From a virus: a stretch of 29,288 nucleotides of DNA. The notes beneath the pieces were generated by a model. That model was not told the origin of the DNA. It worked only from the letters and a program-made list of their open reading frames with translations, and made no database searches. The DNA lies in IMG/VR virus record IMGVR_UViG_3300037264_001217, positions 1-29,288 of that record; one strand, given 5' to 3'. Of this stretch, positions 263 to 27,464 are shown piece after piece (positions within the stretch are counted from its first letter, which is position 1; each line of letters opens with the position of its first letter). The position numbers and the translations under genes were made by a program.

Positions 263-1861
263 TTAAGCGTCCGTTGGTGTGTTGGTTGTAAATTCTATTT
301 CAACGCCAATAACTTGCGCTTCACCAGTAAACGTGTCAGCAGCATCGTCTCCCTGCCTTTGTACTCGGCCAACAAGTAATTTATCGTCGGTTGGTGTACC
401 AGTTATAGTCTGATTGCTTGACCAAGCAGTTATATGCAAATCATCAGTCGTGCCATTACCAGCCTGAGTGAATAAATTGAAGGCAGTACCACCTGTAGCT
501 ACCAAATCTCCACTGGCCAAAAAGTTCAGAAAAACATACATCAAACAGTTACCTGTATTAGTCGAGTTGGGTGCCCAAAAAATCCGCCACCTGATCTGTC
601 CATTGTCATATCGTTTAGGAAGGCGAATTGCAAAACTTGACTGCTCAAACCCAGATGGGCCTAAATTCACTGATGCAATACTAGTATTAATCGTTCCTTC
701 TGATGCATTGGAATGAATGTTCATTTCTTTAGCAGAAATCCAAAGCCTTTGTTTTCCACTCGCAACCGCTACTACCCGCGCATCTACCTGCGCCTGATCC
801 AGTCCTCCACTAGTGAGGGGAGTGAACTCCCAAGTTGTACCACTGTAGATAAACCAGAAACCACCACCGTTAATGTTTAAACTGGCATCTTCCGCTAGGC
901 CGTTAATGGTGCTGCCATTGCGAAGAATTGGAACTGGCGTAACGCTACAGTTGTAAGCAACGTCATGGACGAATGCAACATCGCCTTCATTAGGTGTAGC
1001 TTTCAAAGTGATGTCAAATGTACCGCCAATTGAATCTACGCCAACATCTTCGTTTCCGGTGATGGTGTAATTTGCTATTTTAACCGAAGCGGTTAATCCA
1101 CCTCCGCCACCTGCTCCTACCTCTTGCCATACCGCCGCGCCAACCGTAGCATCAAGGCAGAAAAACAGCTTGTCCAGCGTGGTGTTAAGCCATGGAGAGT
1201 ACAGCCCGTAACCATCGTTAGAGTCTTCATTGATGGTAGGGTCAACGGCAGCATTCAGGTTGGTCTTGATCGTGGTATAGACGCCAGCGCTGGATTTCCG
1301 CATCAAGCCTTCGGCAGCGGAAAAGTCTGCGTCAACAATCGCGCCTTCCAGATTCCCCTGAACTATGGTCCAGTGGGACAGCAGCGTGGGGCTGTCCTGA
1401 TTGGAGAAGAGAGCATCACCAACAGCAAGCGGCTCGGTAAAAAACGTACCCGCATCCGTCACCGTGTACATATCACCCTTCAATATGCCGCTCGGGGCTG
1501 TATCCAAATCGGGGGTATTGGTTGCCGCGTTGTATCCGCCCTTGTAATCCAGCCCGCCTACCAGCGCCGCAGCAATCTGTGCCGCAACAAACGCCTTGAC
1601 TGACTGCTGTGTCGGAACATCAATGGCGCTGTCGGAGACCATATCGTCTTCATCCAGCACCCATGCAGCACTTCCTACGTCCGTGGTGCTCTGGGTGATG
1701 AAGTCTCCGGGGTCAGCCTCCAGCGAGGCTTTGATGGCCGCATAAACGTTCTCGTACTTGATCCTCAAGTCTGAGTTAATCCCGGTCCCGCGCTTGACGT
1801 GAAGCAGGTCACCAATGGTCAGGGTGAGAATCTCGTCAAAGGTGTCTAGCGTGTTAGCCAT
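263..1861 (-). CDS. Tail fibre protein
   Basis: This 532-residue protein looks like a modular tail fibre. The N-terminal third contains the pattern VPTQQSVKAFVAAQ near residues 82-95, a form of the 'PTqkAVKayVd' motif common just after the virion-binding domain of phage fibres. It is followed by GGLDYKGGYNAAT and a stretch ending in HWTIVQGN, also typical of fibre shafts. A five-glycine linker near residue 254 separates this from a C-terminal half that should carry the tip domains, including the module GGLDQAQVDARVVAVASG repeated in the next gene. The ATG overlaps the acetyltransferase stop by eight bases. The C-terminal half is visibly more AT-rich than the N-terminal half, which suggests exchange of the tip. 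It would act at the virion surface in host recognition. Confidence 0.8.
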   Translation of the reverse strand: MANTLDTFDEILTLTIGDLLHVKRGTGINSDLRIKYENVYAAIKASLEADPGDFITQSTTDVGSAAWVLDEDDMVSDSAIDVPTQQSVKAFVAAQIAAALVGGLDYKGGYNAATNTPDLDTAPSGILKGDMYTVTDAGTFFTEPLAVGDALFSNQDSPTLLSHWTIVQGNLEGAIVDADFSAAEGLMRKSSAGVYTTIKTNLNAAVDPTINEDSNDGYGLYSPWLNTTLDKLFFCLDATVGAAVWQEVGAGGGGGLTASVKIANYTITGNEDVGVDSIGGTFDITLKATPNEGDVAFVHDVAYNCSVTPVPILRNGSTINGLAEDASLNINGGGFWFIYSGTTWEFTPLTSGGLDQAQVDARVVAVASGKQRLWISAKEMNIHSNASEGTINTSIASVNLGPSGFEQSSFAIRLPKRYDNGQIRWRIFWAPNSTNTGNCLMYVFLNFLASGDLVATGGTAFNLFTQAGNGTTDDLHITAWSSNQTITGTPTDDKLLVGRVQRQGDDAADTFTGEAQVIGVEIEFTTNTPTDA

Positions 1862-2321
1862 TAATGCTCTCCGGTCTCGCTACCTTGTACCGTCCGCCAA
1901 CGCGGGTAAACCCTGCCCTTTCAAACAGGACATCCACCAATCCACGCCCTTTTGGCACATTGGACGCGCACGCACACTCAACCACCCGGGGCTGCTTCCA
2001 CGCCCATTCCTGCATCGCTCTTAGCATGGCAAGCCCATCACCTTTGATTTCAGAATAGAACGCCCAGTCAGTGACATACCGCCTCCCGCGCACGGGGTCG
2101 GCCCACCAGAATGGTTCAATGCTGGCCATGAGGAAGCCGCGAATGATTTCGTTTCTTTCCGAAACAAGGAAGAGCTTGTCGTGAGAGACAACAAAGACCC
2201 GCATCGTATTAAATACGGTAGGTTTGTGAACTGCCACCTCTTCATTACCAGACCGGGCATGTAACCTCATCCCTGTTTCAATAATGTACGGTATATCCGT
2301 TTCAGTGGCCTTTCTGATCAC
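1854..2321 (-). CDS. GNAT-family N-acetyltransferase-like protein
   Basis: The protein (155 residues from a GTG at 2319-2321) starts VIRKATETDIPYI, a typical GNAT opening in which the first strand leads into an Asp-containing helix. Later come IKGDGLAMLRAM, matching the acetyl-CoA-binding GxG loop and helix of motif A, the strand VVECACASN, and FERAGFTRVGGRY, the usual 'yeklGF' ending. I chose the GTG because the GNAT fold begins there, 11 bases after the previous stop; longer in-frame starts would overlap the preceding gene and add an unlikely Arg/Pro-rich leader. GNAT-like proteins lie in the structural clusters of several podoviruses, where they are thought to be virion or core-associated; whether this one acetylates anything is unknown. 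Confidence 0.75.
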   Translation of the reverse strand: MIRKATETDIPYIIETGMRLHARSGNEEVAVHKPTVFNTMRVFVVSHDKLFLVSERNEIIRGFLMASIEPFWWADPVRGRRYVTDWAFYSEIKGDGLAMLRAMQEWAWKQPRVVECACASNVPKGRGLVDVLFERAGFTRVGGRYKVARPESING

Positions 2322-2331
2322 GGGGGCTTCT

Positions 2332-3498
2332 CTAGGACGTTGGCGTCCCCGGGGGCGGCGGGAATGACCACCAGTTTGCTGCCAGCTGGTTGGAGCTCGC
2401 CCCCAACCAGCTGGCGTCACTTGCCGGGCCTCCAGAACCCCAAGCGCCCCAGAAGCTCTGCATCAGGCCGAACTGCTGGTTGGCCCACGCCATGCCTTCG
2501 CGCATGGCTGCAGCGGACTGCTCAGGCGTCATGCCGGGCTGGTTGGCTTGGCTCATGACCTGCCCCATGATGTTGGAGTAGAAGTTGGTCATGGCAGTCA
2601 TGCCGTTCAGGACCATGGTGCGGGAGAAGTCCCTGCCTGCCTGCCCCTCCATGAGCCCCGCCTGCGCGTACATCTGCCCAAGGTTGTACTCATACGTCTG
2701 GGCGGCCTGCGAAAACCAGTGGTCAAGCTGCTTGTCCATGATGGCTGACTGCCCTTGATAGTCCAGCTTGATGGCTTCAAACTGCCCGGCAATCCTCTGC
2801 GTTTGCAATGACGCGGCCTGCCTGAATGACTGGTCTGACAGGATCGCGTTGTGGATGAACTGCTGCTCCGCCAGAGAAAACTGGTTCTTCATCGCGGCGT
2901 TGAATTCCGCTGACCGGGCGTAGGTTGCCGCGTCAGCAAATCCCACTTTGAAAGCCGTGTCCATTGCGGCCAGCTCTCCAAATGCCCCCGCCATTGCGCT
3001 GTTCTGCCCGCCTCCGCTCAAAGACTGCCGGATAGCCCTTTGCCGCGCCTGCTCAAAAAACGGGCTGTCACGGTCATACAGGTCTTCCAGCTGCCCCGCT
3101 ACCGTCTGCTCCCGGGTAACCTCCCAAGGGGTCATGGTGGGGTCGGCGGTGCCGGAGGAAGTTGAGAACGGAACCGGTGGGGCAACAGGAACGGTTGCAT
3201 TCATGCCAGCGATTTTGGCATCCCCGGTGCCCGGAGGCGGGGCTAGGTTCTTTGGGTCATACGCTGGCGGCTGTGTACCTGCGGGATTACCGGGCGTGCT
3301 GGGGGGCTGGTTAGCTCCCGCTGGCGGCGGCGGAGGCGGAGGCGTTCCGGTGCCGTGAGGCGGAGGCCCATCATCGTACCCGCTTTCGGGCGGCCCGTCC
3401 GCATTTTGGATTTCGTTGTGCGGGGGAGGCAAGAAGTCGTGGGTATCCTCTGCGCCCTGCCCCCCAGTAGAGTATCTCTTTTTGAATGGCTTGCCCAT
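2332..3498 (-). CDS. Proline-rich internal virion or tail-associated protein
   Basis: This 388-residue protein has two parts. The first ~110 residues are Pro/Gly-rich and probably disordered, with a run of seven prolines. The rest is Ala/Gln-rich and helical, running through FFEQARQRAIRQSLSGGGQN, SAMAGAFGELAAM and repeated aromatic/Gln patterns to a Gly/Trp-rich end. The 'ARqqAiqqlagrGl.nSsma..A...A' type pattern is known from the ends of podovirus tail or internal virion proteins thought to leave with the DNA. An upstream GTG is possible, but GGAGGAGG lies 8 bases before the ATG at 3498 and directly abuts the GTG, so the ATG is preferred. A promoter-like TGCTATAAT lies just upstream. The gene stops 10 bases before the GNAT gene. 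Confidence 0.65.
   Translation of the reverse strand: MGKPFKKRYSTGGQGAEDTHDFLPPPHNEIQNADGPPESGYDDGPPPHGTGTPPPPPPPAGANQPPSTPGNPAGTQPPAYDPKNLAPPPGTGDAKIAGMNATVPVAPPVPFSTSSGTADPTMTPWEVTREQTVAGQLEDLYDRDSPFFEQARQRAIRQSLSGGGQNSAMAGAFGELAAMDTAFKVGFADAATYARSAEFNAAMKNQFSLAEQQFIHNAILSDQSFRQAASLQTQRIAGQFEAIKLDYQGQSAIMDKQLDHWFSQAAQTYEYNLGQMYAQAGLMEGQAGRDFSRTMVLNGMTAMTNFYSNIMGQVMSQANQPGMTPEQSAAAMREGMAWANQQFGLMQSFWGAWGSGGPASDASWLGASSNQLAANWWSFPPPPGTPTS
2381..2415 (-). other. 13-bp perfect inverted repeat (RNA hairpin) before the GNAT gene
   Basis: GCCAGCTGGTTGG at 2381-2393 is the exact reverse complement of CCAACCAGCTGGC at 2403-2415, with a 9-base loop between. The hairpin would form in the message near the end of the proline-rich virion gene, about 60 bases before the GNAT start. 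No T run follows on the minus strand, so it is not a standard intrinsic terminator. Confidence 0.8.
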
Positions 3499-3506
3499 GT
3501 CAATCA

Positions 3507-3514
3507 CCTCCTCC
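3507..3514 (-). promoter_or_regulatory. Strong ribosome binding site deciding the start of the proline-rich virion gene
   Basis: On the minus strand the bases read GGAGGAGG, then TGATTGAC, then ATG. The spacing of 8 supports the ATG at 3498 and argues against the in-frame GTG at 3507, which would overlap the site itself. Confidence 0.7.
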
Positions 3515-3534: not shown

Positions 3535-6381
3535 TCAGTGGGGGGCGTGAACAATATCCCAGTCCGGAGACAGGTAAAGGTGCTGGAACAGAATGTCCAC
3601 GCCATAACCATTCTCCGGGTCAATTACCTGATCTACTCCATCAAACGCCAGATACCCGGTCACCGTACCGTAGTAGGGCTGATTTATAAACGGCCATAGC
3701 CCCGGGCTTTCCACGTATTCCGTGTTGCCTGACTGCACAACTGTCGCCAGCATGTCGGTGTCCAACCCAAACACTGGGCCACCTCCGCCAGCATCTATAA
3801 GGGTCACGCCAAAAGCGACATGGACATCATCTTCTGTCGGGGCCGTGGTGACCAGATACAGGAAGAACTTGGTAACGCCACGCTGAACAATCGCTGACTG
3901 TGGCGTTACGGTAATCGTTGCCGTGGTGGCATCAACCAGCCGCTCATCCGTTTGGATTAACGCGGGCTGCGTAGTGAGCGTGATCTGCGCACTTGTGGCG
4001 TTAACTGCCCTGCTGCGAGCCACCCCTGCTGGCAGCGGGGTAAGCGTGATGACGGCGGAGGTGCATTCGACCATCCGTGATCCGCTGATGGTTGCCGGTT
4101 GCCCGGTAATCACAAGGTTTGCGGAGAGGGCCGCAACCGCTCTTGCCCGGAGGACGCTGGCAGCCTGTACCGCCAAGGTCAGCGCCGCCTGTGTTGCCGC
4201 CACAGCTCTGCCACGGCTTACGGCGGCCTGCTGCGGCGTCAGGGTAATGACACCGGAGGTGGCGTTGACTATCCGGTTGTTGCCGATGTTGGCTGCAAAC
4301 GGAGTGAGCGTGATGTTTTGGGAGGTGGCGGCAACCGCTCGGGCGCGGATTACTGCGGCTGCCTGCGGAGTCAGGGTTATAACCGCTTGAGTAGCATTCG
4401 CGGTCCTGCCACGGCCAATCGCGGAAGGCTGCGTGGTTAAAATAATGCTCAGCTGGGTGGCGTCCGCCTCGCGCCCGCGCCCGGCAATTACTGGCTGCGG
4501 CGTTAAGGTAATGGCGGTGGTGGTGGCCTGAACAGCTCTGGCTTTGGAAACAGCCGCCGCCTGCGGGGTGAGCGTGATCTGTGCTGTAGCAGCCGCAACT
4601 GCCCTGCTTCTCGTAACTGCAGCAGCCTGTGGCGTGAGCGTGATAGTCGCTTGCGTAGCGTCCGCTTCACGTCCGCGCCCTACTGCGGCAGCCTGTGGCG
4701 TTAGGGTGATGGCTTGGGCGGTGGCCAGAACATCTCTGGGCCTCGGGACCAAGGCTGCCTGTGGCGTCAGCGTAATCTGGGCAGTGGTGGCAGCGACTGC
4801 CCGGGTTCTCACCACCGCAGCTACCTGCGGCGTGAGGGTAATCACGCCCTGCGTGGCGTCTGCCTCGCGTCCACGCCCCGCTGTGGCCGCTTGAGGCGTG
4901 AGGGTGATCGTTGCCTGCGTGGCGAAGACCGCCCTGCTGCGGGCCACCGTAGCCGCCTGAGGCGTGAGGGTAATAGCGTTGGAGGTGGCCAAAGCCCCCC
5001 GGCCTTTGATAATCGTGGCCGCTTGGGGGGTGAGCGTTATGGCCGCTTGAGTGGCGTCCGCCTCACGTCCACGCCCGGTAGTAGTTGCTTGGGGGGTGAG
5101 CGTGATTACCGCTTGAGTGGCAAATATCGCCCGGCTCCTGACAACTGCCGCCGCCTGCCCTGTCACGGTAATGGCTGCAGAAGTAGCTAAAGCCCCCCGG
5201 CCTTTGATAACCACAGACGCTTGCGGAGTGAGCGTGACAACCGCTTGCGTAGCATTTGCTTTACGCCCCCGACCAACCGTAGTTGCCTGCGGGGTAAGGG
5301 TAATCGTTTTGGTCGTACAGTTGACGATACGGTCAGCGGGTATCTCATGGACAACCTTGATCTGAACATTGTATAAACGTCCTGTGGCAACACCTGATAC
5401 CCAACCAGTGCCGTAGGCGTAACATTCAAGGGCTTGGACTTTAGGCCATGTCCAACCGCCACTAGGTAGAACCAGCTTTTTCCATTCATCAGTGCTGAAA
5501 TTAGTATTGGGATAGTTAGTTACTGTAGTTACAGTACCTAGATTTTCTGCTTTACCATCAGTGAAGATGTCAGCGTTAATGGCAGCATAATCATTCGCGT
5601 CGCCTATTAAACGTGCATAGACCTCAACAATATCAGGACCGGAAGATGGCGCATTGGTACCACCTGCGGAAAGTTCATTGGTGTCATGCGAACCATTCCT
5701 ATCAGAAGTAAGTGCTGCCTGATTTCCACTAGCGAACGCCAGAAATGGTAGGGTATCGCTTGCCCAAGATGCATCCGGGTCAGTTGGCCCTTCATCTGAT
5801 GCATCAAAACGATAAGTTGTGCAGACGTGATTGGGAAAATACGTCCACTCAATTTCAGTTTTGAATTGTCGAGCTTCGCCAGCAGTAAATTGATAGTGAA
5901 TACTATAGATTTGATCAAAATCAACTTGCGTTAGGGGTTCTAACGATTCAAACCCTTGGAGCCAAGCCGACCAATCCGGCGTATCAGTAGTGGTAGAGGC
6001 GGAATGTACGAGGCGTGGATAAATTAAACTACCGCCAAAAGCAGCAAGAAAACTAAGGCCCCCGGAAGCGCCAATGTGTGCACCATAAAATCTAGTGCGA
6101 ACTTTTAAGAAATTATTCCATTTGGCATTAACGGACGTATGGCCCGCTGCCGTTAACTCATTTGTAGTATCACTGCCAGAGGTAGTGGTCGAGGCATAAG
6201 TGCTAGTAGAACCATCGAACGCATTCGCATCATTCGTCCAAACGGCATCGGGATCAGTCGGCCCAGATACCGAAGCATCAAGGTACGAAACCTCTATTGC
6301 TTGAGGTGCTGATCGACCAGATAGAGTCGCAAGCGGACTAGGCCGAGGAGGATGCCTCCAATATGGACGGAACACTGACAT
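3535..6381 (-). CDS. Large repeat-containing fibre-like virion protein
   Basis: This 948-residue protein has three zones. Residues ~31-350 hold two copies of one domain: the first begins near YLDASVSGPTDPDAVW and the second near YRFDASDEGPTDPDASW, each followed by an Asp/Thr-Asn-Glu-Leu segment (DTTNEL, DTNEL). Residues ~355-835 are about 22 copies of a 22-residue unit of the form ATxxxITLTPQAAxVxRxRAV. The last ~112 residues are a separate domain rich in aromatic residues. The repeated two-strand unit suggests an elongated beta-structured shaft, like other viral fibres; this is inference. The ATG at 6381 has only a weak ribosome binding site. The first zone is much more AT-rich than the repeat zone. 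Likely role: a surface fibre or decoration. I do not recognise a named family. Confidence 0.7.
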   Translation of the reverse strand: MSVFRPYWRHPPRPSPLATLSGRSAPQAIEVSYLDASVSGPTDPDAVWTNDANAFDGSTSTYASTTTSGSDTTNELTAAGHTSVNAKWNNFLKVRTRFYGAHIGASGGLSFLAAFGGSLIYPRLVHSASTTTDTPDWSAWLQGFESLEPLTQVDFDQIYSIHYQFTAGEARQFKTEIEWTYFPNHVCTTYRFDASDEGPTDPDASWASDTLPFLAFASGNQAALTSDRNGSHDTNELSAGGTNAPSSGPDIVEVYARLIGDANDYAAINADIFTDGKAENLGTVTTVTNYPNTNFSTDEWKKLVLPSGGWTWPKVQALECYAYGTGWVSGVATGRLYNVQIKVVHEIPADRIVNCTTKTITLTPQATTVGRGRKANATQAVVTLTPQASVVIKGRGALATSAAITVTGQAAAVVRSRAIFATQAVITLTPQATTTGRGREADATQAAITLTPQAATIIKGRGALATSNAITLTPQAATVARSRAVFATQATITLTPQAATAGRGREADATQGVITLTPQVAAVVRTRAVAATTAQITLTPQAALVPRPRDVLATAQAITLTPQAAAVGRGREADATQATITLTPQAAAVTRSRAVAAATAQITLTPQAAAVSKARAVQATTTAITLTPQPVIAGRGREADATQLSIILTTQPSAIGRGRTANATQAVITLTPQAAAVIRARAVAATSQNITLTPFAANIGNNRIVNATSGVITLTPQQAAVSRGRAVAATQAALTLAVQAASVLRARAVAALSANLVITGQPATISGSRMVECTSAVITLTPLPAGVARSRAVNATSAQITLTTQPALIQTDERLVDATTATITVTPQSAIVQRGVTKFFLYLVTTAPTEDDVHVAFGVTLIDAGGGGPVFGLDTDMLATVVQSGNTEYVESPGLWPFINQPYYGTVTGYLAFDGVDQVIDPENGYGVDILFQHLYLSPDWDIVHAPH
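3875..5319 (-). repeat. Array of about 22 coding repeats, 66 bp each
   Basis: The stretch encodes tandem 22-residue units built on ATQAxITLTPQAAxVxRxRA. The conserved part is ITLTPQ; the variable part is the Arg-containing second half. Four units end in GRGREAD, and these are spaced exactly three units apart, so a second-level period of 198 bp is visible in the right part of the array. The leftmost units are the most diverged, and one has 23 residues. Confidence 0.92.
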
Positions 6382-6392
6382 CGCTAATCATC

Positions 6393-6860
6393 TTAGCCTA
6401 GAGCTTCAAATACGATGTAGCCACCAAACGTAATGGAGTCAGTCGGGGTCGTCGCCAGCTCCAGAGTAGCTCTGGCACTGGGGGTAAGTATTGGCCGAGT
6501 TTCTGGAGTCCAAATCATCTGGAATGGAACACGAATGTTCCAGTACCAACTGTACTTGGAAACAATCGTACCGGCAGTTGCCTTGGTCGTGTTGGTATCC
6601 TTTACCACACCACCGAAAGCTGGAGCACCCAGAATTTGTGGGGGTGGTGTGATGGTATTACCACCTGAGCCAGTCGTTGTCTGTCCTGACTTCCATATCA
6701 GCAATAGCATTTCTTCCGCCGCATCGCCAATATCAAGTCCCTGACTGATGCCGACTTCATGAACTATGACACTGGCAGTTGAGGGTGCGGCGATCTCAAG
6801 CAGGTCAACTTGAACTGTTTCCGCCTGCCCATTAAATGTTGCTGTGTAGATAAGACCCAT
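6393..6860 (-). CDS. Conserved-type phage virion protein of unknown function
   Basis: This 155-residue protein begins MGLIYTATFNGQAETVQVDL and ends TDSITFGGYIVFEALG. It is rich in beta-forming residues, with a Gly/Thr/Pro loop in the middle (TTTGSGGNTITPPPQ) and Trp/Tyr-rich strands after it (YSWYWNIRVPF, FQMIWTPE). There is no signal peptide, membrane segment or catalytic motif. A GAGGTG ribosome binding site lies close to the ATG. It sits between two appendage genes, so a small structural or chaperone-like role in the appendage is likely, but nothing in the sequence proves it. Confidence 0.65.
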   Translation of the reverse strand: MGLIYTATFNGQAETVQVDLLEIAAPSTASVIVHEVGISQGLDIGDAAEEMLLLIWKSGQTTTGSGGNTITPPPQILGAPAFGGVVKDTNTTKATAGTIVSKYSWYWNIRVPFQMIWTPETRPILTPSARATLELATTPTDSITFGGYIVFEALG

Positions 6861-6863
6861 AGA

Positions 6864-8189
6864 TCACCTCACTAGTAAATGTGTAAAACGGCCCCGCTCA
6901 TCAAATGGGGGGAAACTTTTAGCGGCTGGAGCTGGTTTTAGCAGAATCGTCTGTGCCGCCCATTCAGTAGCCACTGACGGTGTTATGGTGGCAGGGTCTT
7001 CTGCACTTGTTGTGTATAAACCTTTGGTCGCACCATAATTAGAAGTGCTGCCATCAACTGTATTAGCACGATCCCAACGCTCAGTGTATCCAGCAGGTGG
7101 TGTTCCTGTCGGTGCGCCTTTATTGCCGGAAACAATCAGCGCCAGCGTATTGACCACATTCGGCGTGACACTTGGTGGATCAGCATTACCAGACGCGGCA
7201 GTTGCACCTGCACTACCATCAATCGGGCTAGCTGCATCATGTCCGTCAAACCTGCCAACCGTCCATGTGTACTTCGCGGATGAATTTAGCGTGACCGCCG
7301 AAAGCGCATCGCCATTTTCAGCACGACGATAGGTGGTGACAGTGACGTTTGTACTTTGGGCATCTTCACGAATCAGCGTCCATTGACTTGCAGTGATGGT
7401 GTTTGTCGTGCCACCTTCTTTACAGATTTGCAGGATCAGCAGATCGCCGCTGGTCGTACCGCTTGGTTTGGCAACCGCCAACGAAGTACCTGTACCTGTG
7501 CTGCCTGTTTCAGTACGGAAAACCGGCGTGGCGGGTAACGTGAATCCTGTCGGCGGAATAGCAAGGGTTTGAGCTGCCCACTCTTCTACAGCCGTCATGG
7601 TCATCGTGCCGGGGTCTTCTGCCGAGCCCGTAGTCAGAGCACGTTGACCAAACGCAACGCAACACGACGATGTACCAGTAGCAGAACGTTTCGCTACGCC
7701 CGCGCTGTAATTAGTTGACCACCCTGTATAGCCGGTGTCCGGGTCAGCAATGTCATCGTCATCTGCACCAAAGCAAGCGAGGAACAGCCAGTCAGCAGAG
7801 ATAGGTGGAGTTACTGTTGGAGGATTTGGGGCAGCATCAGAACCTGTAGCTGCCGTGCCTTTGTAAATGTCATTGGCAAGACTGACAACACCGTGACCAG
7901 TAATTCGTGCAGTAACCACCGCATAATCGTTAGCCTCACCAACCAGCGTCATCGTATCGCCGCCAGCGGCGATCTTGGCGAATATGGTTAACTGGCAGGC
8001 TGTGCCGTTGGCTTGGTCGGTGATGTTCGTCCAGTCAGCGGCGGTATAGGCAACCGCAGTATCACCAGCACAGAACGCAATCAGCAGATCGCCCGCCGAT
8101 ATGCTGGCAGGCATATTGATGGAGACGCCGGGACTTACCGAGGATGTGCCAGCAGTAGTATCGGTAGTGGCAACTACTGGCGAGGCCAT
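6864..8189 (-). CDS. Virion protein with a duplicated ~200-residue beta domain
   Basis: This 441-residue protein is two diverged copies of one domain. Each copy has the opening pattern 'SxSPGVSINMPASISAGDLLIA' / 'SLAVAKPSGTTSGDLLIL', a central 'DPPSVTPNVVNTLAL'-type segment, and a shared ending, EDPGTMTMTAVEEWAAQTLA in copy 1 and EDPATITPSVATEWAAQTIL in copy 2. The copies cover roughly residues 5-212 and 218-428. The pattern of alternating hydrophobic residues suggests a beta-sandwich of the kind found in phage appendages. The ATG shares a base with the preceding stop (TAATG), implying coupled translation. Probable fibre or decoration component; the binding partner is unknown. Confidence 0.7.
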   Translation of the reverse strand: MASPVVATTDTTAGTSSVSPGVSINMPASISAGDLLIAFCAGDTAVAYTAADWTNITDQANGTACQLTIFAKIAAGGDTMTLVGEANDYAVVTARITGHGVVSLANDIYKGTAATGSDAAPNPPTVTPPISADWLFLACFGADDDDIADPDTGYTGWSTNYSAGVAKRSATGTSSCCVAFGQRALTTGSAEDPGTMTMTAVEEWAAQTLAIPPTGFTLPATPVFRTETGSTGTGTSLAVAKPSGTTSGDLLILQICKEGGTTNTITASQWTLIREDAQSTNVTVTTYRRAENGDALSAVTLNSSAKYTWTVGRFDGHDAASPIDGSAGATAASGNADPPSVTPNVVNTLALIVSGNKGAPTGTPPAGYTERWDRANTVDGSTSNYGATKGLYTTSAEDPATITPSVATEWAAQTILLKPAPAAKSFPPFDERGRFTHLLVR

Positions 8190-8479
8190 TAGAAGTCCGC
8201 TTCAGCCGTAGTTCTTGCCGTGATTACGTCCGTTTCAGCTGTCGCTCGGGTATCCTGTTCCGCCATTTCCGCCAACCACTTTTTCCCCCAAGCCTTCGTC
8301 GCAAGAACAAACACCCGAGCTTTTTCCTCGTTGGTTGGGTTCAATGGGTCAACAGCTTCAAGCAGCTCCGGCCACTTCTTTAAAGCGGCATTAGCTAAAC
8401 GTAGCAACTGCGGGTTTGATGGTGTTACATCCACAGCGCCTGTGATGATGTCGGTCGCCCGTTCAATAAATGTAGCCAC
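8189..8479 (-). CDS. Small helical protein of unknown function
   Basis: This 96-residue protein starts at a GTG at 8477-8479, supported by AAGGAG six bases before it. It is mostly predicted helix: an N-terminal helix, then NPQLLRLANAALKKWPELLEA, then an Ala/Glu/Thr-rich tail (AETDVITARTTAEADF). There are no cysteines and no signal or membrane segment. It sits between two beta-rich virion genes and overlaps the next by one base. A small virion component or assembly helper is plausible. Confidence 0.65.
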   Translation of the reverse strand: MATFIERATDIITGAVDVTPSNPQLLRLANAALKKWPELLEAVDPLNPTNEEKARVFVLATKAWGKKWLAEMAEQDTRATAETDVITARTTAEADF

Positions 8480-8537: not shown

Positions 8538-8996
8538 TTACGCCTGATTGACGCGGAACAGGCCGTTTGCGTGCCACGTGATGCTCAAGGGGCCCGTGGT
8601 CATGTCAAACGTGCCGCCCAGATCAACCCACCCGACGCAGCGCAAGCCAGCATCGGTGCTGTTGTAGATGATCCCCCAGAAGGCATTGGTTGGGTTACCG
8701 GCGTTCTGCGCCCAAGACACGTCATCTCCATCAAACTGGGCCAGACCACCGGTAAGCGTTACCGCTGGATTGGCGATGGTCGCGCCATCCACAGCATAGG
8801 TGCCGCCCGGAGTGACTTCGTTGGTCTTGAAGTTGGTGGTTCCGCCAGCGCCCCAGCGGGGATCAGCGGTGGTTGTGGTGGGGGTAGTGGTACTGGTGAC
8901 GATACCAACCTTGAAAACATCGTTTTCAAAGTCGTGCAGCTTCTCCAGAAAGTCCACCAAGTTTTGGTCAAAAACTCCAAGATCACCTTGTGCCAT
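8538..8996 (-). CDS. Small virion structural protein
   Basis: This 152-residue protein starts MAQGDLGVFDQNLVDFLEKL, with a short helical start, then FENDVFKVGIVTS and a Thr/Pro linker. The rest is beta-rich and ends in TWHANGLFRVNQA. The layout (short N-terminal helix, strand KVGIVTS, Thr-rich linker, then a compact Gly/Trp-rich sandwich) resembles small structural proteins often annotated in podovirus tail clusters; I base this on pattern, not on a search. AGAGG lies about 10 bases upstream of the ATG. Position among the appendage genes supports a virion role. Confidence 0.65.
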   Translation of the reverse strand: MAQGDLGVFDQNLVDFLEKLHDFENDVFKVGIVTSTTTPTTTTADPRWGAGGTTNFKTNEVTPGGTYAVDGATIANPAVTLTGGLAQFDGDDVSWAQNAGNPTNAFWGIIYNSTDAGLRCVGWVDLGGTFDMTTGPLSITWHANGLFRVNQA

Positions 8997-9023: not shown

Positions 9024-10574
9024 TTATAAAGATTGTGACAAGCGGATTGTGGACCCAACCGGAATGGACATCAAATCAGTGCCCAAAGTGTCTAGTCCGA
9101 CAACAGTTAATTCAACTTCAAAATCAAGCTCCACATCCATGGTTTCCAAGGCCGCAAGCTCCACATCCATGGTGTAAGGCGCGATCTTTGAGAACCGCAG
9201 GACCGTGTGCGAGCCATTGCGATTCCAGTTATTTTCTGGCGGAACAAGGTCAGAAATGGCCTCATAAATCCAGTTCCCGGAGTATTCCACTATGGGGCCG
9301 GAAGACTCGGCGTTCAGATACACCAGCAAGGTGTCGCCTGCATAGACGTGAACCGTGTCTATTTGCACCACGTTCCACTGATCCGGCGTCAGCATCAGCC
9401 CACGGTACACGTACTGAACCGCCGCAGGGTTGAGAATGATCATCAACCGGTACGTGTCATTGGCTGATGGCGGCCACACCCGCACAGCATTCACGTGGCC
9501 GGGTTCCGTGAAGAGATAGGAATGCCCGGACCACACCGATGACATGTCAAAATAGTTGTTCCACGTGGGGGCTGGCATCAGGAATTCCGGATCGCCAATC
9601 AATTGTGGAGCTGCCCGGTCTGAGGTGACCTTGTTGGCAATCATGGTGTACGGACGGTCCCACACCACCATGAGCTGCTGGTACTCCCGTGGCTCCCACA
9701 TACCAGCCCAGCTCATCACATTGGGCGGGCGGGCCAGCAGGTTGCCCCACGATGTTTGGTGCGGGTTGTTGAAATTGTTGATGTGGCTATAAAAATCCCC
9801 ACCAAGCGTTGGTGGGTCGCCAATGTATTCGTAGATAATCTCGTCAAAGCGCTCCACGCTGGAGGACAGGCTGATGCTGGTCAGGTAACCGGCGCTGGCA
9901 ATGGTCACCGGCTCAAGATGTATCCCCCTCATGACCCCGCCAAACTGCACGAACGCTGACGTGTCGTTGTCAAATTTCAGGGTTTTGCCCGTATCAACGG
10001 ACCCCTCCAGAACATCATCACTGTCGGGGATAAAGCGCACCCTGTATTCGCCCGCCACCAGTGCTCCGGAGGCGTTCACTGACAGCTGGTGGTAAATCAT
10101 GTTGCGGTGGTTGGGCAAGGTTTTTGACACGCCCCCAAAATCACTGGGGATTTCAGTGGCGATGTCCGTTGACACGTAATCGTGGTCAACATCTTTCTCC
10201 GTCTTGCCAACGCTGGAGCGGCGCACTCTGGAGTACGAAGAAACAACAACGCTGATGGTCTCCCCGGCGCTCGGCAACACCGCCGCACGCAGGTGGATGC
10301 CCTTGATCACCCCGGTGAAATTGATCAGGCCGCTGTTCTTGCCTGCCAAGCTGATGACTTTGCTGACTGGGATGGAATTCCTCACCTTCTTGGTGCTGGT
10401 GTCGGGGATGATCCGCACCTGATATTCCCCCGCCGCCAGCACGCCACTGCTCACAATGACAATCTGGTGACTGGTCATGTTGCGATGATTCGGCAGCAGT
10501 CCGGACCAATCTCCTACGTCACTCTGGGCATTTTTCAGCACCGTGGTGGAGACCTTCCGGAATTGCTCTTTCAT
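9024..10574 (-). CDS. Virion appendage protein with internal duplication
   Basis: This 516-residue protein contains two copies of a ~105-residue domain near its N-terminus. Copy 1 has LPNHRNMTSHQIVIVSSGVL, then AAGEYQVRIIPD and GVIKGIHLRA. Copy 2 has LPNHRNMIYHQLSVNASGAL, then VAGEYRVRFIPD and GVMRGIHLEP. A different Trp/Pro-rich region follows (SYLFTEPGHVNAVRVWPP). The C-terminus carries a short repeat, TMDVELAALETMDVELDF. The ATG at 10574 overlaps the preceding TGA as TGATG; a TTG one codon earlier is also open but less likely. It is probably a tail-associated structural protein; no enzyme motif is visible. Confidence 0.7.
   Translation of the reverse strand: MKEQFRKVSTTVLKNAQSDVGDWSGLLPNHRNMTSHQIVIVSSGVLAAGEYQVRIIPDTSTKKVRNSIPVSKVISLAGKNSGLINFTGVIKGIHLRAAVLPSAGETISVVVSSYSRVRRSSVGKTEKDVDHDYVSTDIATEIPSDFGGVSKTLPNHRNMIYHQLSVNASGALVAGEYRVRFIPDSDDVLEGSVDTGKTLKFDNDTSAFVQFGGVMRGIHLEPVTIASAGYLTSISLSSSVERFDEIIYEYIGDPPTLGGDFYSHINNFNNPHQTSWGNLLARPPNVMSWAGMWEPREYQQLMVVWDRPYTMIANKVTSDRAAPQLIGDPEFLMPAPTWNNYFDMSSVWSGHSYLFTEPGHVNAVRVWPPSANDTYRLMIILNPAAVQYVYRGLMLTPDQWNVVQIDTVHVYAGDTLLVYLNAESSGPIVEYSGNWIYEAISDLVPPENNWNRNGSHTVLRFSKIAPYTMDVELAALETMDVELDFEVELTVVGLDTLGTDLMSIPVGSTIRLSQSL
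9125..9173 (-). repeat. 19-bp direct repeat, period 30 bp, inside the gene
   Basis: The same 19 bases (+ strand caagctccacatccatggt) occur at 9125-9143 and 9155-9173. They encode the repeated motif TMDVEL in frame, so one short tandem duplication is visible near the C-terminus of the 516-residue protein. Confidence 0.85.
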
Positions 10575-11182
10575 CAAATGATGTCCGTTGACAGCCCGAG
10601 CTGTATGCGCAGGGTGTTCTGCATCCCCTGCTTGTAGATGTACGGAGGCGCACCCGTCAGCTGCAGGTATTCAGTCAGGTAGCGGTCTCTCTGCCTGCGC
10701 TGGTACAGGTTGTAGGTGTCATCCAGCTGCTTGATGGTGTAATAAAGCAGCACATCATTGGCCAGCGTCTGGGTGGTACGCTTATCATCCAAGGCCAACA
10801 TCGGGGTGGTCGCGCCAAACGGCAGGTTGGTGGTAACCCAGTCCGCAGGAACGGAGTCATACCAGTAGAGCTTGGCCTGCCCCCCAGCGGTGAAAGCAAT
10901 GCTGACGTGTGCGTTCTGGTCAAATGCCAATGAGCACTGGGTAACGTCCGCGTGGTTGAGCACGATCACGGGAGTCAGGGTGATTTCCGGTGTGATGATG
11001 AAATTATCGGTGGCAAAATCCCACGTCAGCTTCCACACCTGATACATCAGCCCCAGCGATGTGTTCTCGGGCGCAAGCGGGCCCATTTCGTAGTCCTCAT
11101 CCAGTGCCCGGCTCCTTCCATCCGGGTCAAGCCAATCAGATGACTTTACTGTAGTGGACAGCCTGTTCTGGTAATGGGCCAT
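10574..11182 (-). CDS. Conserved-type phage virion protein of unknown function
   Basis: This 202-residue protein begins MAHYQNRLSTTVKSSDWLDP. It has an N-terminal extended part, a beta-rich middle (SLAFDQNAHVSIAFTAGGQA, KLYWYDS) and a helical C-terminal part with NLYQRRQRDRYLTEYLQL. The mix suggests a beta-sandwich with a helical arm that could pack against the tail. The ATG overlaps the preceding stop (TAATG), and its own stop overlaps the next start, so it is translated as part of a tightly coupled set with the flanking appendage genes. No catalytic residues stand out. Confidence 0.65.
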   Translation of the reverse strand: MAHYQNRLSTTVKSSDWLDPDGRSRALDEDYEMGPLAPENTSLGLMYQVWKLTWDFATDNFIITPEITLTPVIVLNHADVTQCSLAFDQNAHVSIAFTAGGQAKLYWYDSVPADWVTTNLPFGATTPMLALDDKRTTQTLANDVLLYYTIKQLDDTYNLYQRRQRDRYLTEYLQLTGAPPYIYKQGMQNTLRIQLGLSTDII

Positions 11183-12162
11183 TAGGGGATGGTCCCCTCA
11201 ATCCACGCCAGCCGCCATACCATGATCATGGTGAAGTTGACGGTTTTCGGTATGGTGAAGCCAGTGCCCTGCGCGGTGAACGATGTCTGGAATGACCCGG
11301 CATTTGTCCGAATCCTGATGCTCCTGATTCCATTGCCAAGGTTCCATCCGGTAATTCCGCAGTTGCATTGCATGTCAACGTAGTACGAATTATTGACGTA
11401 TGCCTTGTTGAACTGGGTTGCATTATCACACGCAGCGCTGACCCCGCTGGGATTTTGGATAATTGTCCCCAGCGCCCCGTCATAAGCCTGCCAGTCTGAG
11501 GTGAAGAGGGAATACTGCCCCATGGTTTGCCCCATGTTGCCGCCTTGGGTTGAGGCGTTGTTCACTTCTGCTGCGGTTGAAACGGTGTTGTAGGTAATCC
11601 CATTCAACGTCACCGTTCCGTTTACCGGAGTCAGCGGCGGGTAGTAACGCAGCTCATAGGTAACATCCAGAACTTCGTCCCCCAAAACCGTGATGGTGGT
11701 GGGATCGCCCATGCCGTCAACGATGCGGGCGCGGGTAATGAGCGTGGCCCCGCTCGTACCCCAGCCAACCCCTACCTCAGAAAGGTTGCCAGTCGCAACC
11801 CCCACGGCAAACCGATAGGTGATGAGGGACCATCCGTAGTAAGGCGGGGAGGATTGAGCGCCAAATGACTGCGCCTGCACTGTGGACGTTGAAGCCACAA
11901 ACGTCTGCAGTGCCGTGTCCGTGGCCAGCGCAGCATTGGTTCCGGCCCCCACATGGCATTTTGAACCGCTGTAAGCCCAGTTGTTTTGGGTGACCAGATT
12001 GTTGCGCCCGGAGTCCAGCATCTTGTTCTTGAACCACGGCACCAGCTCGCGCTTTTTGCCAGTGTGTATGTTGGTGGCGTCCATGCGGAAACGACCAATC
12101 ATGCCAACGGTCATCTGGCCGCACGGTACTTCGATTTCCTTGTGTTTGGGGAGAATGAGCAT
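11182..12162 (-). CDS. Appendage structural protein, paralogue of the preceding gene
   Basis: I start this 326-residue protein at MLILPKHK, the ATG at 12160-12162, because it overlaps the preceding stop as TAATG and has GCGAGG about 8 bases upstream. The longer open frame would run far into the previous gene. It shares matched blocks with the preceding protein: DEVLDVTYELRYYP, NGTVTLNGITYNTVS, AYDGALGT and FTAQGTGFTIPK, in the same order. There is a central Gly/Ser/Thr-rich region and no enzyme motif. The pair looks like a tandem duplication of a tail appendage or fibre subunit, possibly forming a mixed oligomer. Confidence 0.7.
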   Translation of the reverse strand: MLILPKHKEIEVPCGQMTVGMIGRFRMDATNIHTGKKRELVPWFKNKMLDSGRNNLVTQNNWAYSGSKCHVGAGTNAALATDTALQTFVASTSTVQAQSFGAQSSPPYYGWSLITYRFAVGVATGNLSEVGVGWGTSGATLITRARIVDGMGDPTTITVLGDEVLDVTYELRYYPPLTPVNGTVTLNGITYNTVSTAAEVNNASTQGGNMGQTMGQYSLFTSDWQAYDGALGTIIQNPSGVSAACDNATQFNKAYVNNSYYVDMQCNCGITGWNLGNGIRSIRIRTNAGSFQTSFTAQGTGFTIPKTVNFTMIMVWRLAWIEGTIP

Positions 12163-13115
12163 TATGGATGCCTCGCCCATGTGTATTGGTAAACCAAAGT
12201 CATGATCTTGGTGGCGTTTTTGGGAATCCTCAGCCCGGTTCCTTGCGCAGTGAATTGCGTCTGCCAATGAAGGTCGGTCGCAACTCTGGTCTTCGCGGTA
12301 CGGACTCCGAGCGGGGCGTTGCCTTCATTCAGGCCATAATCAACCGTGTAATTCCTGAAACCTGAGCCCCCGCTGCCAGCGGTGACAACCGCCCCCTGTA
12401 TGTCCGGGGAAGGGGCTCCCAGCGGGGCGTTTGCAGTGAGTGCGCCCAACAATCCGTCATACGTATAATGGTAGGAAGGGAAGCTCCCATCATGGTAATA
12501 CCGGTCAAAGGGGGACATGATGGCATTCAACAACAACGCCCGGTTTACGGTGTCGTAGGTGATGCCGTCAATGACCACAGTGCCTCCCACATCGCTTATT
12601 CTTGGCCAGATTTTCAGGCGATAGCTGACATCCAAAACCTCATCGGATGCCTTGACGATGGCCGGAGATACTGCCGCGTGCGCGAACATGTTAGTGCCCG
12701 CTGTGTTTTGGCCAGCGCCCACTTCCCGGACTGTCCCGGTGCCAACCCCGGCATCGAATCGTCTGGTCTGGGTTTCATGCAGCTCATAGGGGGAACTGGA
12801 ATTCCACACCTTTACCGGGCTCCCCTGAGGCACTTGGGAATACGCCAGAAAGCTTTCCATTTGCGTATCGGTGAATGCCGGGGCGGTGGAGCCCGAACCG
12901 ATATAGTGGACATTGGCCCACGAAGTTCCCCAAGTCGTGCAGAGGGAAAGGCCGTTGTTGGTGATCAGGTTTCCAAACCAGCCTGAGTCATAATTCATCT
13001 GCCCCATGCTGTTGTACTTGACGAGCCTGAATTCCCCCCCAAGGCCCGTGTGCTCGTTACCAGCGCCGGGGTGACCCAGCTCGCCATAAACGTCTCTGTA
13101 TTTTAATAGGTGCAT
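12162..13115 (-). CDS. Appendage structural protein, paralogue of the following gene
   Basis: This 317-residue protein is the first member of a tandem pair. Conserved blocks in order are WFGNLITNNGL, DEVLDVSYRLKIWP, GGTVVIDGITYDTVN, YDGLLGAL and FTAQGTGLRIPK. Two adjacent ATG codons are possible; AGGAGG at 13121-13126 sits two bases before the first and five before the second, so I prefer the second (13115), a difference of one residue. It lies between the large jelly-roll appendage protein and its paralogue. A tail appendage or fibre subunit is likely; it could be a structural partner of its paralogue. Confidence 0.7.
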   Translation of the reverse strand: MHLLKYRDVYGELGHPGAGNEHTGLGGEFRLVKYNSMGQMNYDSGWFGNLITNNGLSLCTTWGTSWANVHYIGSGSTAPAFTDTQMESFLAYSQVPQGSPVKVWNSSSPYELHETQTRRFDAGVGTGTVREVGAGQNTAGTNMFAHAAVSPAIVKASDEVLDVSYRLKIWPRISDVGGTVVIDGITYDTVNRALLLNAIMSPFDRYYHDGSFPSYHYTYDGLLGALTANAPLGAPSPDIQGAVVTAGSGGSGFRNYTVDYGLNEGNAPLGVRTAKTRVATDLHWQTQFTAQGTGLRIPKNATKIMTLVYQYTWARHP

Positions 13116-13124
13116 CATTCCCTC

Positions 13125-16073
13125 CTAAACGGGCGTCATGGAGCAGTTGCTGCTGTCCAGCGAAATTGAAAATTCCAAGGCTTCTTCCGGGGCAGTTGTT
13201 TCAATGAGTATCTGATCCAAGGCCCCGCTGGTCAAGGAATGCCCCAGATCAAGTTGGTCTTCGTATGGGCCGGTGGACTTCAATATCTGGCGCAGGGTGC
13301 CACTGCTTAATGCGTGGCCCAAATCCATCTGGTCTTCATATGGCCCGGTGGTCTTCAATATGAGACGCAGGGTTCCACTGGTTAGCGAATGGCCCAAATC
13401 CATCTGGTCTTCATTGATCGGGTACATGGCCCCAGAGGACAGGCTTATCGCAAACAACAGCGCTTCCTTAACCTCAATCGGATACAGGGTTGAAGTAACC
13501 AGCGTCAGGAATGACTGGGGAATTGATTCATCCTGCACCAGCCCGAATTCGTGCATGTTCCTTGGCACGATGTCGGGGATCATGATGACCGAGCTGTACA
13601 CCAGATTCTTGTACACCTCATCAGCCAAGTCCCACGTTATGGCATTCGTGCCGCCATCAAGGTGTGCCACGTGGGTGTTGTCCGTGCGATAAAACTCACC
13701 GGTCGGCAGCAGGGAAGTGAAGTCCTCAATTGCCCGGGGACGGGTCACACCGGACAAGTGCCCAACAATGGGGGAGCTACCGGTCCATGTGCCGCCCTGA
13801 ACTTCAAACTGCGCCCAGTCAAGAATCACCCAGCCCTGTGCCGTGACATCTATAACGGAGGGATCAAATACCTTGGCCGGGCTGGGGTATATCTGCACCC
13901 GGAATCCATTGTGAAGTCCGTCATTGGCCAAGGACAGGTCAACCCGCCACCAGTCCTTCCAGCCAACAATCCCGATGTAGGCATAGTTGGCCAGTGAATC
14001 GGTATCAAACGCCCCATCCTTGATACGGATACGAACCACCCCGCCGCCAAGGTTGGATGCCCCGCCAGTAAGCTGCGCCACCACATCAATGTACTCAGAC
14101 GGGGGAACCGCCACCTGCTCATGCTGTGGGGTGACAATCTGCACGCCATTGGCGTCAAAGGCGCGGCGAATGTAGATGCTGAAATCGTGCGTGCGGACTA
14201 CCTGCGGGATGGTGAATACCAGCTGCACGAAGCCATTGGCCACCTTTGACGTGCCCTGCAGTAGAGAAGCTCTGGAAGGCCACATATCAATGCCGTATTC
14301 GGTCTGCGCTACGGGGCGCTTGCAGTCCGGATTCTCCACCCCAGACAGCCCCACGCTGTCCCAGTAACTGAGCCCGCGCATGTACTGGAACCCGACCAGA
14401 TTGTCGGATGCAACCTCGCGGGCCACGCCATCCAGAATGTTGGAGGTTACCCCAACCCCCGTGGCATAGGTCAGGACGTGATCTGCGCTCAGACTGCTCT
14501 CATTGGTCAGCCCATAAACCGAACGGTTGGCTGCCATTTCGTAGATGTCTACCAAGTACACCGAAGATGACCCAGCCACCAGAACAAATTTCAGGTGGCC
14601 GCCCTCATACTGGAAGGTGAACGGAGCCTGTTGCAGGTACAACGGGTCGGTTGGGGGGCCCGCTGCCCAGACCGTCTGCTCATACTGCATCCGGATGTCG
14701 CACGCATCGCCGCTTTGCAGCCTTGCGTGGACCAGATAGGTCTTCCCCACCCCGAACACGGTGTTGAATTCCACGTACTTGCCAACGGACGCAAGGGTCA
14801 GGGTCTTGGTGCCATCCACCCATGTGCCGGTGCCGGTGGCGGATAGCACCATGCTGGCCCCCAGAGTGCCCTCTTGGAACTCGGAACAGCGCTCAGGGGC
14901 CTGATGCCGCAAAACCTCTACTTGGACATCAGTTACATAAATCGGGCTGCCTTCGCTGCCTGAGGGGCTCATGAAGGATATTTCCATCAGAGTCCGTGGG
15001 TACGTCTCGCTCAGCACAAGGGCTGTCTGTGCCACGAAATCCTCTGCCAACGGGTCATACCCGGTCACATCCAAGATGGCCCCGTAGGTTTGCCATGAGC
15101 TGGTGAGGTTCACCTGCACCGCATGGTGTTGTGGCGGGGTCAGGCCGGTCTTGCCCATGAAGGCGTTGACCACGCGCACTGCCGCTGTGCCGGAAACAGC
15201 CTTGGCTTTGAAGCTCACCGCTATTTTCAGTGGGTCGGCTTGTCTGGATGCGCGGCCAAACGCAGGCAGGATGAACGTAGCAACCTTGCCACCGGTTGCC
15301 GTGAAGGTCAGGCGCTGAACATCCTCACTGGCTGGCCCTGCTCCGGCCACGGTGGCCACCGTCACATTGGTCACCACCCATGACAGGTGCGTCAGGTCAC
15401 TGGGTTTGGCTACCCAGTTATCCACATACCGCGCCCCCGCGAAGCGCGGGAAGCCGGTCATGATGTACCAATGCGCCTGCGTCTGGTCCCAGATCATCCC
15501 ATAGGTGGTCCGGGTAAAGCCCAGTGTGTCATCCCCCTCCAGATTGGTCAGGTGGGAGACCAGCGGATAAAAGCGCTGCTCCACCCCACCGGGCAGCAGG
15601 TTGAACTGGTTCTTGGAGCTGGCCACGCAAATCCATGTGAGCGAGCAAATATCCCAGTAAAACTCCAGCAGCATGGAGGCATACGGGCCTTCACCCGTGT
15701 ACAGCTCCCACCAGTTGCCCAGCCCGTATTCCTTCCACGTTTGAGCTCCCCACAGGTTGGTGATCTTGAAGCTGCTGCCGTGGATCAACAGGGATAGCCG
15801 GTATTGCTCTTCGTTCAGGGGTGACGCCAGCTGAATGGCTGTGTCCGTGGTGATGGTCAACTCTTGCAGGAAGCCGTTGTCCGGGCTGATGGTAACCACC
15901 CCGGAAAGCACGGTGGAATTGGTGTAGACGGTCAGGTAAGTGGCGATATTCAGCGCCTGCAGGCGCGTAAACGCTTCCTCAATTGCGGTGAATTCATCAC
16001 GCAAATGCTTGGCCCGCTCGGTGCGCCCGGAACGCCCTTTGAAGTTGTTGTTGTAGAGCTTGGTGGTTGCCAC
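13125..16073 (-). CDS. Large appendage protein with jelly-roll domains and C-terminal repeats
   Basis: The 982-residue protein starts at a GTG with AGCAGG upstream. Residues ~1-165 match the two preceding genes in layout: a helical segment (LRDEFTAIEEAFTRL) followed by a beta-sandwich. Then come about three domains that look like CBM4/9-type or galactose-binding-like jelly rolls. One contains RLTFTATGGKVATFILPAFG and VSFKAKAVSGTAAVRV, and the last contains WVILDWAQFEV, a 'l.wAQlE' signature common in phage appendage jelly rolls. The C-terminus has 25-residue tandem repeats around EDQMDLGHSLTSGTL. The N-terminal module probably docks on the tail while the sandwiches face the host surface; the sugar-binding idea is inference. 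Confidence 0.7.
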   Translation of the reverse strand: MATTKLYNNNFKGRSGRTERAKHLRDEFTAIEEAFTRLQALNIATYLTVYTNSTVLSGVVTISPDNGFLQELTITTDTAIQLASPLNEEQYRLSLLIHGSSFKITNLWGAQTWKEYGLGNWWELYTGEGPYASMLLEFYWDICSLTWICVASSKNQFNLLPGGVEQRFYPLVSHLTNLEGDDTLGFTRTTYGMIWDQTQAHWYIMTGFPRFAGARYVDNWVAKPSDLTHLSWVVTNVTVATVAGAGPASEDVQRLTFTATGGKVATFILPAFGRASRQADPLKIAVSFKAKAVSGTAAVRVVNAFMGKTGLTPPQHHAVQVNLTSSWQTYGAILDVTGYDPLAEDFVAQTALVLSETYPRTLMEISFMSPSGSEGSPIYVTDVQVEVLRHQAPERCSEFQEGTLGASMVLSATGTGTWVDGTKTLTLASVGKYVEFNTVFGVGKTYLVHARLQSGDACDIRMQYEQTVWAAGPPTDPLYLQQAPFTFQYEGGHLKFVLVAGSSSVYLVDIYEMAANRSVYGLTNESSLSADHVLTYATGVGVTSNILDGVAREVASDNLVGFQYMRGLSYWDSVGLSGVENPDCKRPVAQTEYGIDMWPSRASLLQGTSKVANGFVQLVFTIPQVVRTHDFSIYIRRAFDANGVQIVTPQHEQVAVPPSEYIDVVAQLTGGASNLGGGVVRIRIKDGAFDTDSLANYAYIGIVGWKDWWRVDLSLANDGLHNGFRVQIYPSPAKVFDPSVIDVTAQGWVILDWAQFEVQGGTWTGSSPIVGHLSGVTRPRAIEDFTSLLPTGEFYRTDNTHVAHLDGGTNAITWDLADEVYKNLVYSSVIMIPDIVPRNMHEFGLVQDESIPQSFLTLVTSTLYPIEVKEALLFAISLSSGAMYPINEDQMDLGHSLTSGTLRLILKTTGPYEDQMDLGHALSSGTLRQILKSTGPYEDQLDLGHSLTSGALDQILIETTAPEEALEFSISLDSSNCSMTPV
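13188..13412 (-). repeat. Three tandem 75-bp coding repeats
   Basis: Three near-identical 25-residue units follow one another: EDQMDLGHSLTSGTL, EDQMDLGHALSSGTL and EDQLDLGHSLTSGAL, each followed by a 10-residue linker ending near TTGPY, STGPY or TTAP. Degenerate copies flank them on both sides (EALLFAISLSSGAM before, EALEFSISLDSSNC after), so the original array probably had five units. Confidence 0.9.
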
Positions 16074-26889: not shown

Positions 26890-27464
26890 CTGTTCTTCCT
26901 CACGTAGCGGTGTCCATCGGCCTCTACAATGCTCCACTCCCCGGTTGCCAGCTTTCTGGCTATCTCCGCCTCCCTTACCCTCTTCTTGTCCGCGAAGTCA
27001 GATATGTCTGGTATACACTGGCCACGCGCATCCCTTGGGGCCGCCTTAAGCCTGTCAATGTCCATCCGGTCAGGCATCCCAAAGCGCCTCAATATCTCAT
27101 GGCCAGCAATTGTGGCCTGCCGCCGCCTTGGGTCGTTCATGATGTCTACCATTCGGATTGTATACCCATATTCGCTGTGAAGCTGCAGGCAGTACACGTC
27201 AATCATGCGGCCAAACGCATTAGGCTTTATTGCCCATGACCAGCCGGGGTATCGCTTCACCAGAATATCAGCCATGTCCTTGCACAGGATGACAGTGGAG
27301 CTACGGTAGCTATCGTCAAACTGGTTGGGGTTGGTGATTACCCCCTCAGGCTCCCCATGCGGATCACGCTTGCCGGTGTGCAGGATGTTGGCGAGCTTGC
27401 GCTTCACCCATCCCAGATCAAACTTCTCTACCTTGCGATGGGGGGTCGTCTCTTCTTCTGCCAT
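26886..27464 (-). CDS. Conserved-type protein of unknown function next to the portal
   Basis: The 192-residue protein starts MAEEETTPHR and is coupled to the portal gene by an ATGA overlap. Notable segments are VKRKLANILHTGKRDPHGEP, SSTVILCKDMADILVKRYPG and WSWAIKPNAFGRMIDVYCLQ, followed by GYTIRMVDIMNDPRRRQATI. It is basic overall and appears compact alpha/beta. The coupling suggests a role in packaging or portal assembly. It is not a recognisable terminase: no Walker A or nuclease motif is visible. The first 27 bases after the start are also found in the 116-residue gene at the right end, in another frame. Confidence 0.65.
   Translation of the reverse strand: MAEEETTPHRKVEKFDLGWVKRKLANILHTGKRDPHGEPEGVITNPNQFDDSYRSSTVILCKDMADILVKRYPGWSWAIKPNAFGRMIDVYCLQLHSEYGYTIRMVDIMNDPRRRQATIAGHEILRRFGMPDRMDIDRLKAAPRDARGQCIPDISDFADKKRVREAEIARKLATGEWSIVEADGHRYVRKNR
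27437..27463. repeat. 27-bp direct repeat, copy 1
   Basis: These 27 bases are identical to 29081-29107 and in the same orientation. On the minus strand this copy starts one base inside the ATG and encodes AEEETTPH of the 192-residue protein. A chance match of this length in 29 kb is extremely unlikely. Confidence 0.92.

Follow-up and report, generated by a model that had tools for sequence, protein, structure and literature searches.

Roughly the middle half of a 948-amino-acid protein encoded by this virus is built from 22 tandem units of 22 residues. We consider, by a modest balance of probability, that this protein forms the shaft of an appendage on the neck or tail, folded as a length-variable, three-faced β-solenoid and encoded in an exchangeable cassette together with a phrog_644-like protein. 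Judged from its sequence, the array would belong, as a divergent variant, to a phage repeat family that is common yet apparently unnamed, and in which copy number varies by whole units. The window is the whole 29,288-base virus record IMGVR_UViG_3300037264_001217, and all positions are window positions. The repeat protein gene is laid out as follows.

3535–6381, minus strand: repeat-protein open reading frame, 948 amino acids, with no Pfam or PHROG matches.
5332–6381, minus strand: acidic N-terminal region (residues 1–350, net charge −18) holding a tandem pair of related domains (GPTDPDA.W motif).
3880–5331, minus strand: array of 22 units of 22 amino acids (66 bp), residues 351–834.
4462–5076, minus strand: stretch over four GRGREAD junctions (5056–5076, 4858–4878, 4660–4680 and 4462–4482), 198 bp apart.
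3538–3879, minus strand: acidic C-terminal domain (residues 835–948, net charge −14).

The array is highly regular. A unit profile recovered 22 units, spaced by 22 residues 20 times and by 23 residues once, which bears out the preliminary description of about 22 coding repeats of 22 residues and moves its limits from 3875–5319 to 3880–5331. Identity at a lag of 22 residues in the repeat protein is 0.50; 1000 shuffles gave 0.12, with a maximum of 0.17. The ITLTPQ core had been called invariant, an overstatement of what is a strong conservation: it is exact in 13 of the 22 units, while [IVL][TI][LV]T is present in 20. TRF detected just a 2.1-copy, 198-bp part of the array (4495–4908). Other tandem repeats were seen in the window: a 75-bp repeat at 13237–13414 (2.4 copies, 81%, 25 codons) inside a 982-residue tail-region open reading frame (13125–16073), a perfect 14-bp duplication at 27479–27506 between the frames 26886–27464 and 27541–28014, and a perfect 21-bp duplication at 29027–29069, close to the right end of the record.

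GRGREAD recurs every third unit as first described, in four copies each 198 bp from the next. Similarity between units three apart (0.596 for amino acids, 0.598 for nucleotides) was higher than in any of 20000 unit-order shuffles, supporting the proposal that whole triplets had been duplicated. The phase of this 198-bp super-repeat is kept over approximately units 1–14 (4408–5331) and fades after unit 15. A three-unit period could also be taken as a sign of trimer geometry; we rejected this because relatives show other super-periods or none, and the super-repeat reflects block duplication rather than trimer geometry.

Nucleotide identity between array units reaches 73% at most. The longest exact repeat within the array is 22 bp; it joins units 2/3 and 5/6 at a distance of 198 bp and looks like the relic of a later triplet duplication. 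Codons for the same residue agree between units at 0.31–0.42, highest at lag 3, against a random expectation of 0.29. Near-randomized codons with retained residues argue that the array is old and has probably been maintained by selection on the protein. Because the units are so diverged at the DNA level and share so short an exact repeat, frequent slippage between virions of the window phage is unlikely; assembly collapse of the array is unlikely on the same ground. The earlier suggestion that array length might vary between virions or strains is thus left standing for strains, where variation was seen in relatives of the window phage, and not for virions.

Pfam and PHROGs searched with the 948-residue protein gave no family, a PDB sequence search and a plasmid search gave nothing, and neither its N-terminal region nor its C-terminal domain matched a family. 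A related-locus search with the repeat protein and the products of 9024–10577 and 6864–8189 returned nothing, the repeat protein was absent from 38 records of MCP relatives, and no orthologue of it was found; open-access papers searched for the repeat motif held nothing relevant. The only match among annotated phages was MW202473. DNA patterns of three TLT cores placed 66 bases apart drew many contigs from IMG/VR, and the same 22-residue pattern proved to occur in at least 102 loci forming 49 dereplicated clusters. The unit is therefore not a singleton, and its billing as the most unusual structure in the window must be qualified, the repeat type being common among environmental phages.

Over 527 distinct units, the family consensus approximates RKLTADxGTFTLTGQDAxLxRG, in which positions 3/5, 10/12 and 17/19 are hydrophobic while 21, 1 and 2 are basic; positions 10–14 are biased by the search pattern, and 3, 5, 17 and 19 lie outside it. 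These FTLTG-type proteins, unnamed relatives from environmental phages (IMG/VR; EBPR siphovirus 2 gp72; Manatee Spring phages), have in common with the window protein the tandem 22-residue units and their exact spacing, the inward hydrophobic positions, the TLT core, the basic corner and an upstream phrog_644 gene. A five-unit profile from the window alone matches them down to E 4e-70 (L029). The window array departs from them in fewer acidic residues, a stronger three-unit super-repeat (super-repeats in relatives being rare, of other step sizes, or absent) and unmatched terminal domains. It departs further at positions 8 and 14, where it has mostly Ala and Pro, respectively, instead of the Gly found in 88% and 99% of cases in the FTLTG family (position 14 being fixed by the search pattern). 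Gly at these positions is typical of, but not strictly defining for, a family defined in the present analysis, and the window array is therefore classed as a divergent FTLTG-type variant. The ITLTPQ subtype was not found beyond the window, an ITLTP pattern search giving only low-complexity or otherwise unrelated arrays, so the link to the family rests on the five-unit profile. Relatives of the array protein carry no consistent PHROGs or Pfam family name, and no convincing Pfam, PHROG or PDB match.

A second group, the TLTGVSATG-type arrays of aquatic phages, resembles the window in its 22-residue spacing, TLTG core, phrog_644 linkage and whole-unit length variation; its match to the window profile is weak (L108, E 1.5e-4), the second half of its unit is rich in Gly and Val, and its homology is unsettled. 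A scan of genome contigs gave one clear family member, Mesorhizobium contig L213; the family array of L213 and L094 lies in a Mesorhizobium sp. WSM3626 contig and possibly in a prophage. Several candidates were set aside. An ungapped unit profile was abandoned when iteration carried it into low-complexity sequence, and Pam1 gp10 is not claimed as a short family member, its profile score lying within the shuffle range, as does that of a 362-residue MW202475 protein that looks array-like by eye. A match of the A4 profile to the PDB adhesin 6xi3 (E 0.002) was spread over weak repeats and treated as composition.

With regard to fold, AlphaFold2 placed three short strands in every unit in both runs, one on 12 units with a 16-row alignment and the other on 8 units with a 45-row alignment, at low confidence (pLDDT about 51, pTM 0.43–0.45). 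Foldseek found no significant match for the array model, and the PDB list consisted mostly of β-solenoids. The two BFVD matches of highest probability (prob 1.00, TMq 0.70 and 0.77, E 0.05–0.14) were phage proteins, one of which takes its name from an F5/8 domain. AlphaFold2 over-predicts β-solenoids for repeat sequences (PMC11795689), so the proposed fold rests more on the 3/5–10/12–17/19 pattern than on the model. The β-structured rod of the preliminary description is held up in its β regularity, the models showing no separate globular units; as a rod it is plausible on weak support. The 22 units (484 residues) would form one continuous β-solenoid rod in which each unit makes one coil of three short strands, its inward residues at 3/5, 10/12 and 17/19. 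Right-handed parallel β-helix proteins, such as tailspikes and Cthe_2159 (PF14262), have about 22 residues per coil, close to the unit length of the window array. Several family arrays score against PF14262 (L029 at 41 bits), which may reflect shared TLTG composition; the window protein differs in having no PF14262 match and no recognized enzyme or binding domain.

The 7/7/8 spacing of inward residues suits a triple β-helix as well as a single-chain solenoid, and the array could instead form an intertwined homotrimeric fiber shaft, as a triple β-helix or β-spiral, with three chains wrapped together and each unit supplying three strand-turn modules. Many phage fiber shafts are trimers, and low monomer confidence from AlphaFold2 is expected where a fold needs partners. 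The idea of a repetitive, β-rich shaft is shared with the triple β-spiral of the adenovirus type; however, the repeat there is 15 residues long and the unit here 22, so the β-spiral first suggested does not apply in its adenovirus form, and trimerization leaves unexplained a three-unit super-repeat that is rare or differently stepped in relatives. We regard a homotrimer as unlikely, albeit a serious competitor. The low pLDDT, together with a predominance of small polar residues, would also fit a flexible, mostly disordered Thr/Ala-rich spacer with no fixed fold. This we consider quite improbable given that the position-specific hydrophobic pattern is retained across hundreds of diverged units, that spacing is exactly 22 residues at 20 of 21 steps, and that residues were kept while codons became nearly randomized, indicating selection at the protein level. 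Furthermore, phrog_644 linkage is missing from the genuinely low-complexity, TP-rich arrays that the search pattern also picked up.

Returning to the solenoid, the array proteins of the family are probably stiff appendage shafts whose lengths change by whole units between relatives. Within the TLTGVSATG group, proteins of 446 (L043/L107), 468 (L005/L041) and 512 (L049) amino acids are near-identical except for whole 22-residue units, and the agreement in length of separate contigs within the first two pairs argues against assembly error. The MLLTLLRN group, near the window's repeat type, comprises same-ended proteins of 203, 226 or 246 amino acids (54–98% identical to a single reference); another, related form of 422 residues holds approximately 18 units. 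Unit number would set shaft length, which would evolve as single units or blocks are lost or duplicated unequally. Tandem repeats changing in number are also reported among the BACON domains of crAss-like phages (PMC6949934), and there the repeats are whole domains rather than 22-residue units.

The array carries a net charge of +30 (pI about 12), as its first description as positively charged implied, and lies between two acidic regions that leave the whole protein near neutral. In the solenoid model, an outward corner at positions 21-22-1 would present two Arg or Lys per coil, and the acidic N-terminal tandem domains and acidic C-terminal domain would constitute the two ends of the shaft, of which one would anchor it and the other make contact. 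Binding of the corner Arg ladder to an anionic polymer (LPS, capsule or nucleic acid) might be the very purpose of the array, and the net charge of +30 is in keeping with this, as are the two Arg/Lys per coil that most units carry. Across family arrays, however, net charge per unit ranges from −2.5 to +2.3 with a median of 0, so that charge is not a conserved family property; positive charge is therefore a trait of the window variant, and, with the near neutrality of the whole protein also counting against it, a cationic purpose is very unlikely.

The cassette also takes in genes upstream of the array gene.

8538–8996, minus strand: phrog_644-like protein, 152 amino acids (PHROG E 1.4e-10), same strand as the array gene and 2157 bp upstream of it.
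8189–8479, minus strand: cassette open reading frame of 96 amino acids, with no homologue found among the fetched loci.
6864–8189, minus strand: 441-amino-acid protein; a related frame lies directly upstream of the repeat array in L231.
6393–6860, minus strand: 155-amino-acid protein immediately upstream of the array gene (11-bp gap); its homologue is directly upstream of the array in MW202742 (L208).

Using a profile grown from the window 8538–8996 protein, we found a phrog_644 relative in 65 of 102 FTLTG loci and in none of the 21 low-complexity control loci. After DNA clustering the linkage held in 33 of 49 array clusters, against 0 of 16 and 1 of 21 (MCP relatives) in the controls (p below 1e-6), and in 12 of 19 clusters of the TLTGVSATG group; these counts are lower bounds, as many contigs end early. 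The family phrog_644 protein has approximately 145 residues and is co-directional with the arrays, being always on the array strand and, in nearly all of 70 pairs, upstream or abutting. The gap in the window resembles a common 2-kb class of other loci. We infer that the phrog_644 protein may be the base, collar or partner of the shaft.

The cassette is accessory. Two genes on its downstream side are informative.

2332–3507, minus strand: conserved gene; in L204–L206 its homologue directly follows that of 10574–11182, with the cassette absent.
1854–2420, minus strand: acetyltransferase-like gene (read from sequence), conserved beside the 2332–3507 homologue in relatives; a comparable Pam1 module is annotated.

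Three relatives that are syntenic through the tail-fiber genes (L125, L127 and L128, 80–84% MCP identity) lack both the array and a phrog_644 protein over the DNA that was examined; there, the homologues of 10574–11182 and 2332–3507 adjoin, and that of 9024–10577 follows 1854–2420. In the window, the cassette sits between 10574–11182 and 2332–3507, with local rearrangement. In other MCP relatives, parts of the cassette occur upstream of a large relative of the 24439–26937 gene, which we read as the portal. The 517-residue product of 9024–10577 has two similar N-terminal segments (LPNHRNM...HQ...GEY.VR.IPD), and its first 300 residues are matched in L204–L206, placed elsewhere in the gene order. 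Repetitive proteins follow the tail genes in MCP relatives, namely an HVRDAG.WK repeat (L140:14416–14937) and collagen-like GPTGPTG repeats (L142:16702–17196 and L144:15679–16443), as if this region often holds repeat proteins.

The array gene itself lies in the structural region, on the same strand as tail-fiber-type genes (11182–13118, phrog_4176) and the MCP gene (21554–22552, phrog_1357). One MW202473 protein, annotated as tail tubular protein A, joins the array at its N-terminal side to a phrog_394 tail protein (E 1.2e-35) at its C-terminal side. The phrog_644 homologue of MW202475, the closest to that of the window (56%), adjoins a head-tail adaptor gene (phrog_637) a few genes before a head-closure gene (phrog_578), and in Pseudanabaena phage Pam1 a homologue (46%) is flanked by 'needle head' and by a protein resembling PDB 'Needle protein' chains (E 2.4e-7). 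By association, this fusion and these neighbors point to the neck or short tail as the likely location of the array protein, while the genomic context of arrays differs from phage to phage.

Taken together, the array gene product would build the shaft of an appendage that the virion carries at its neck or short tail, forming an exchangeable cassette with the phrog_644 protein as its putative base, collar or partner, and serving perhaps as a spacer or to set reach. It is tempting to extend this, more tentatively and short of an even chance, to a widespread module in which a phrog_644 base protein and a shaft of 22-residue coils travel as a cassette among unrelated tailed phages, in neck, tail-adaptor and tail-fiber regions, with reach tuned by whole coils, singly or in blocks.

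Repetitive phage appendages are a kind already known; the family, its partner linkage and its whole-unit length variation look new. Naming the repeat would annotate many phage proteins now called hypothetical, and for phrog_644, which has no known function, linkage to the arrays offers a first testable role. The length and reach of phage appendages affect which cells are touched, and close natural relatives differing by one to three coils offer ready material for testing if reach depends on unit number.
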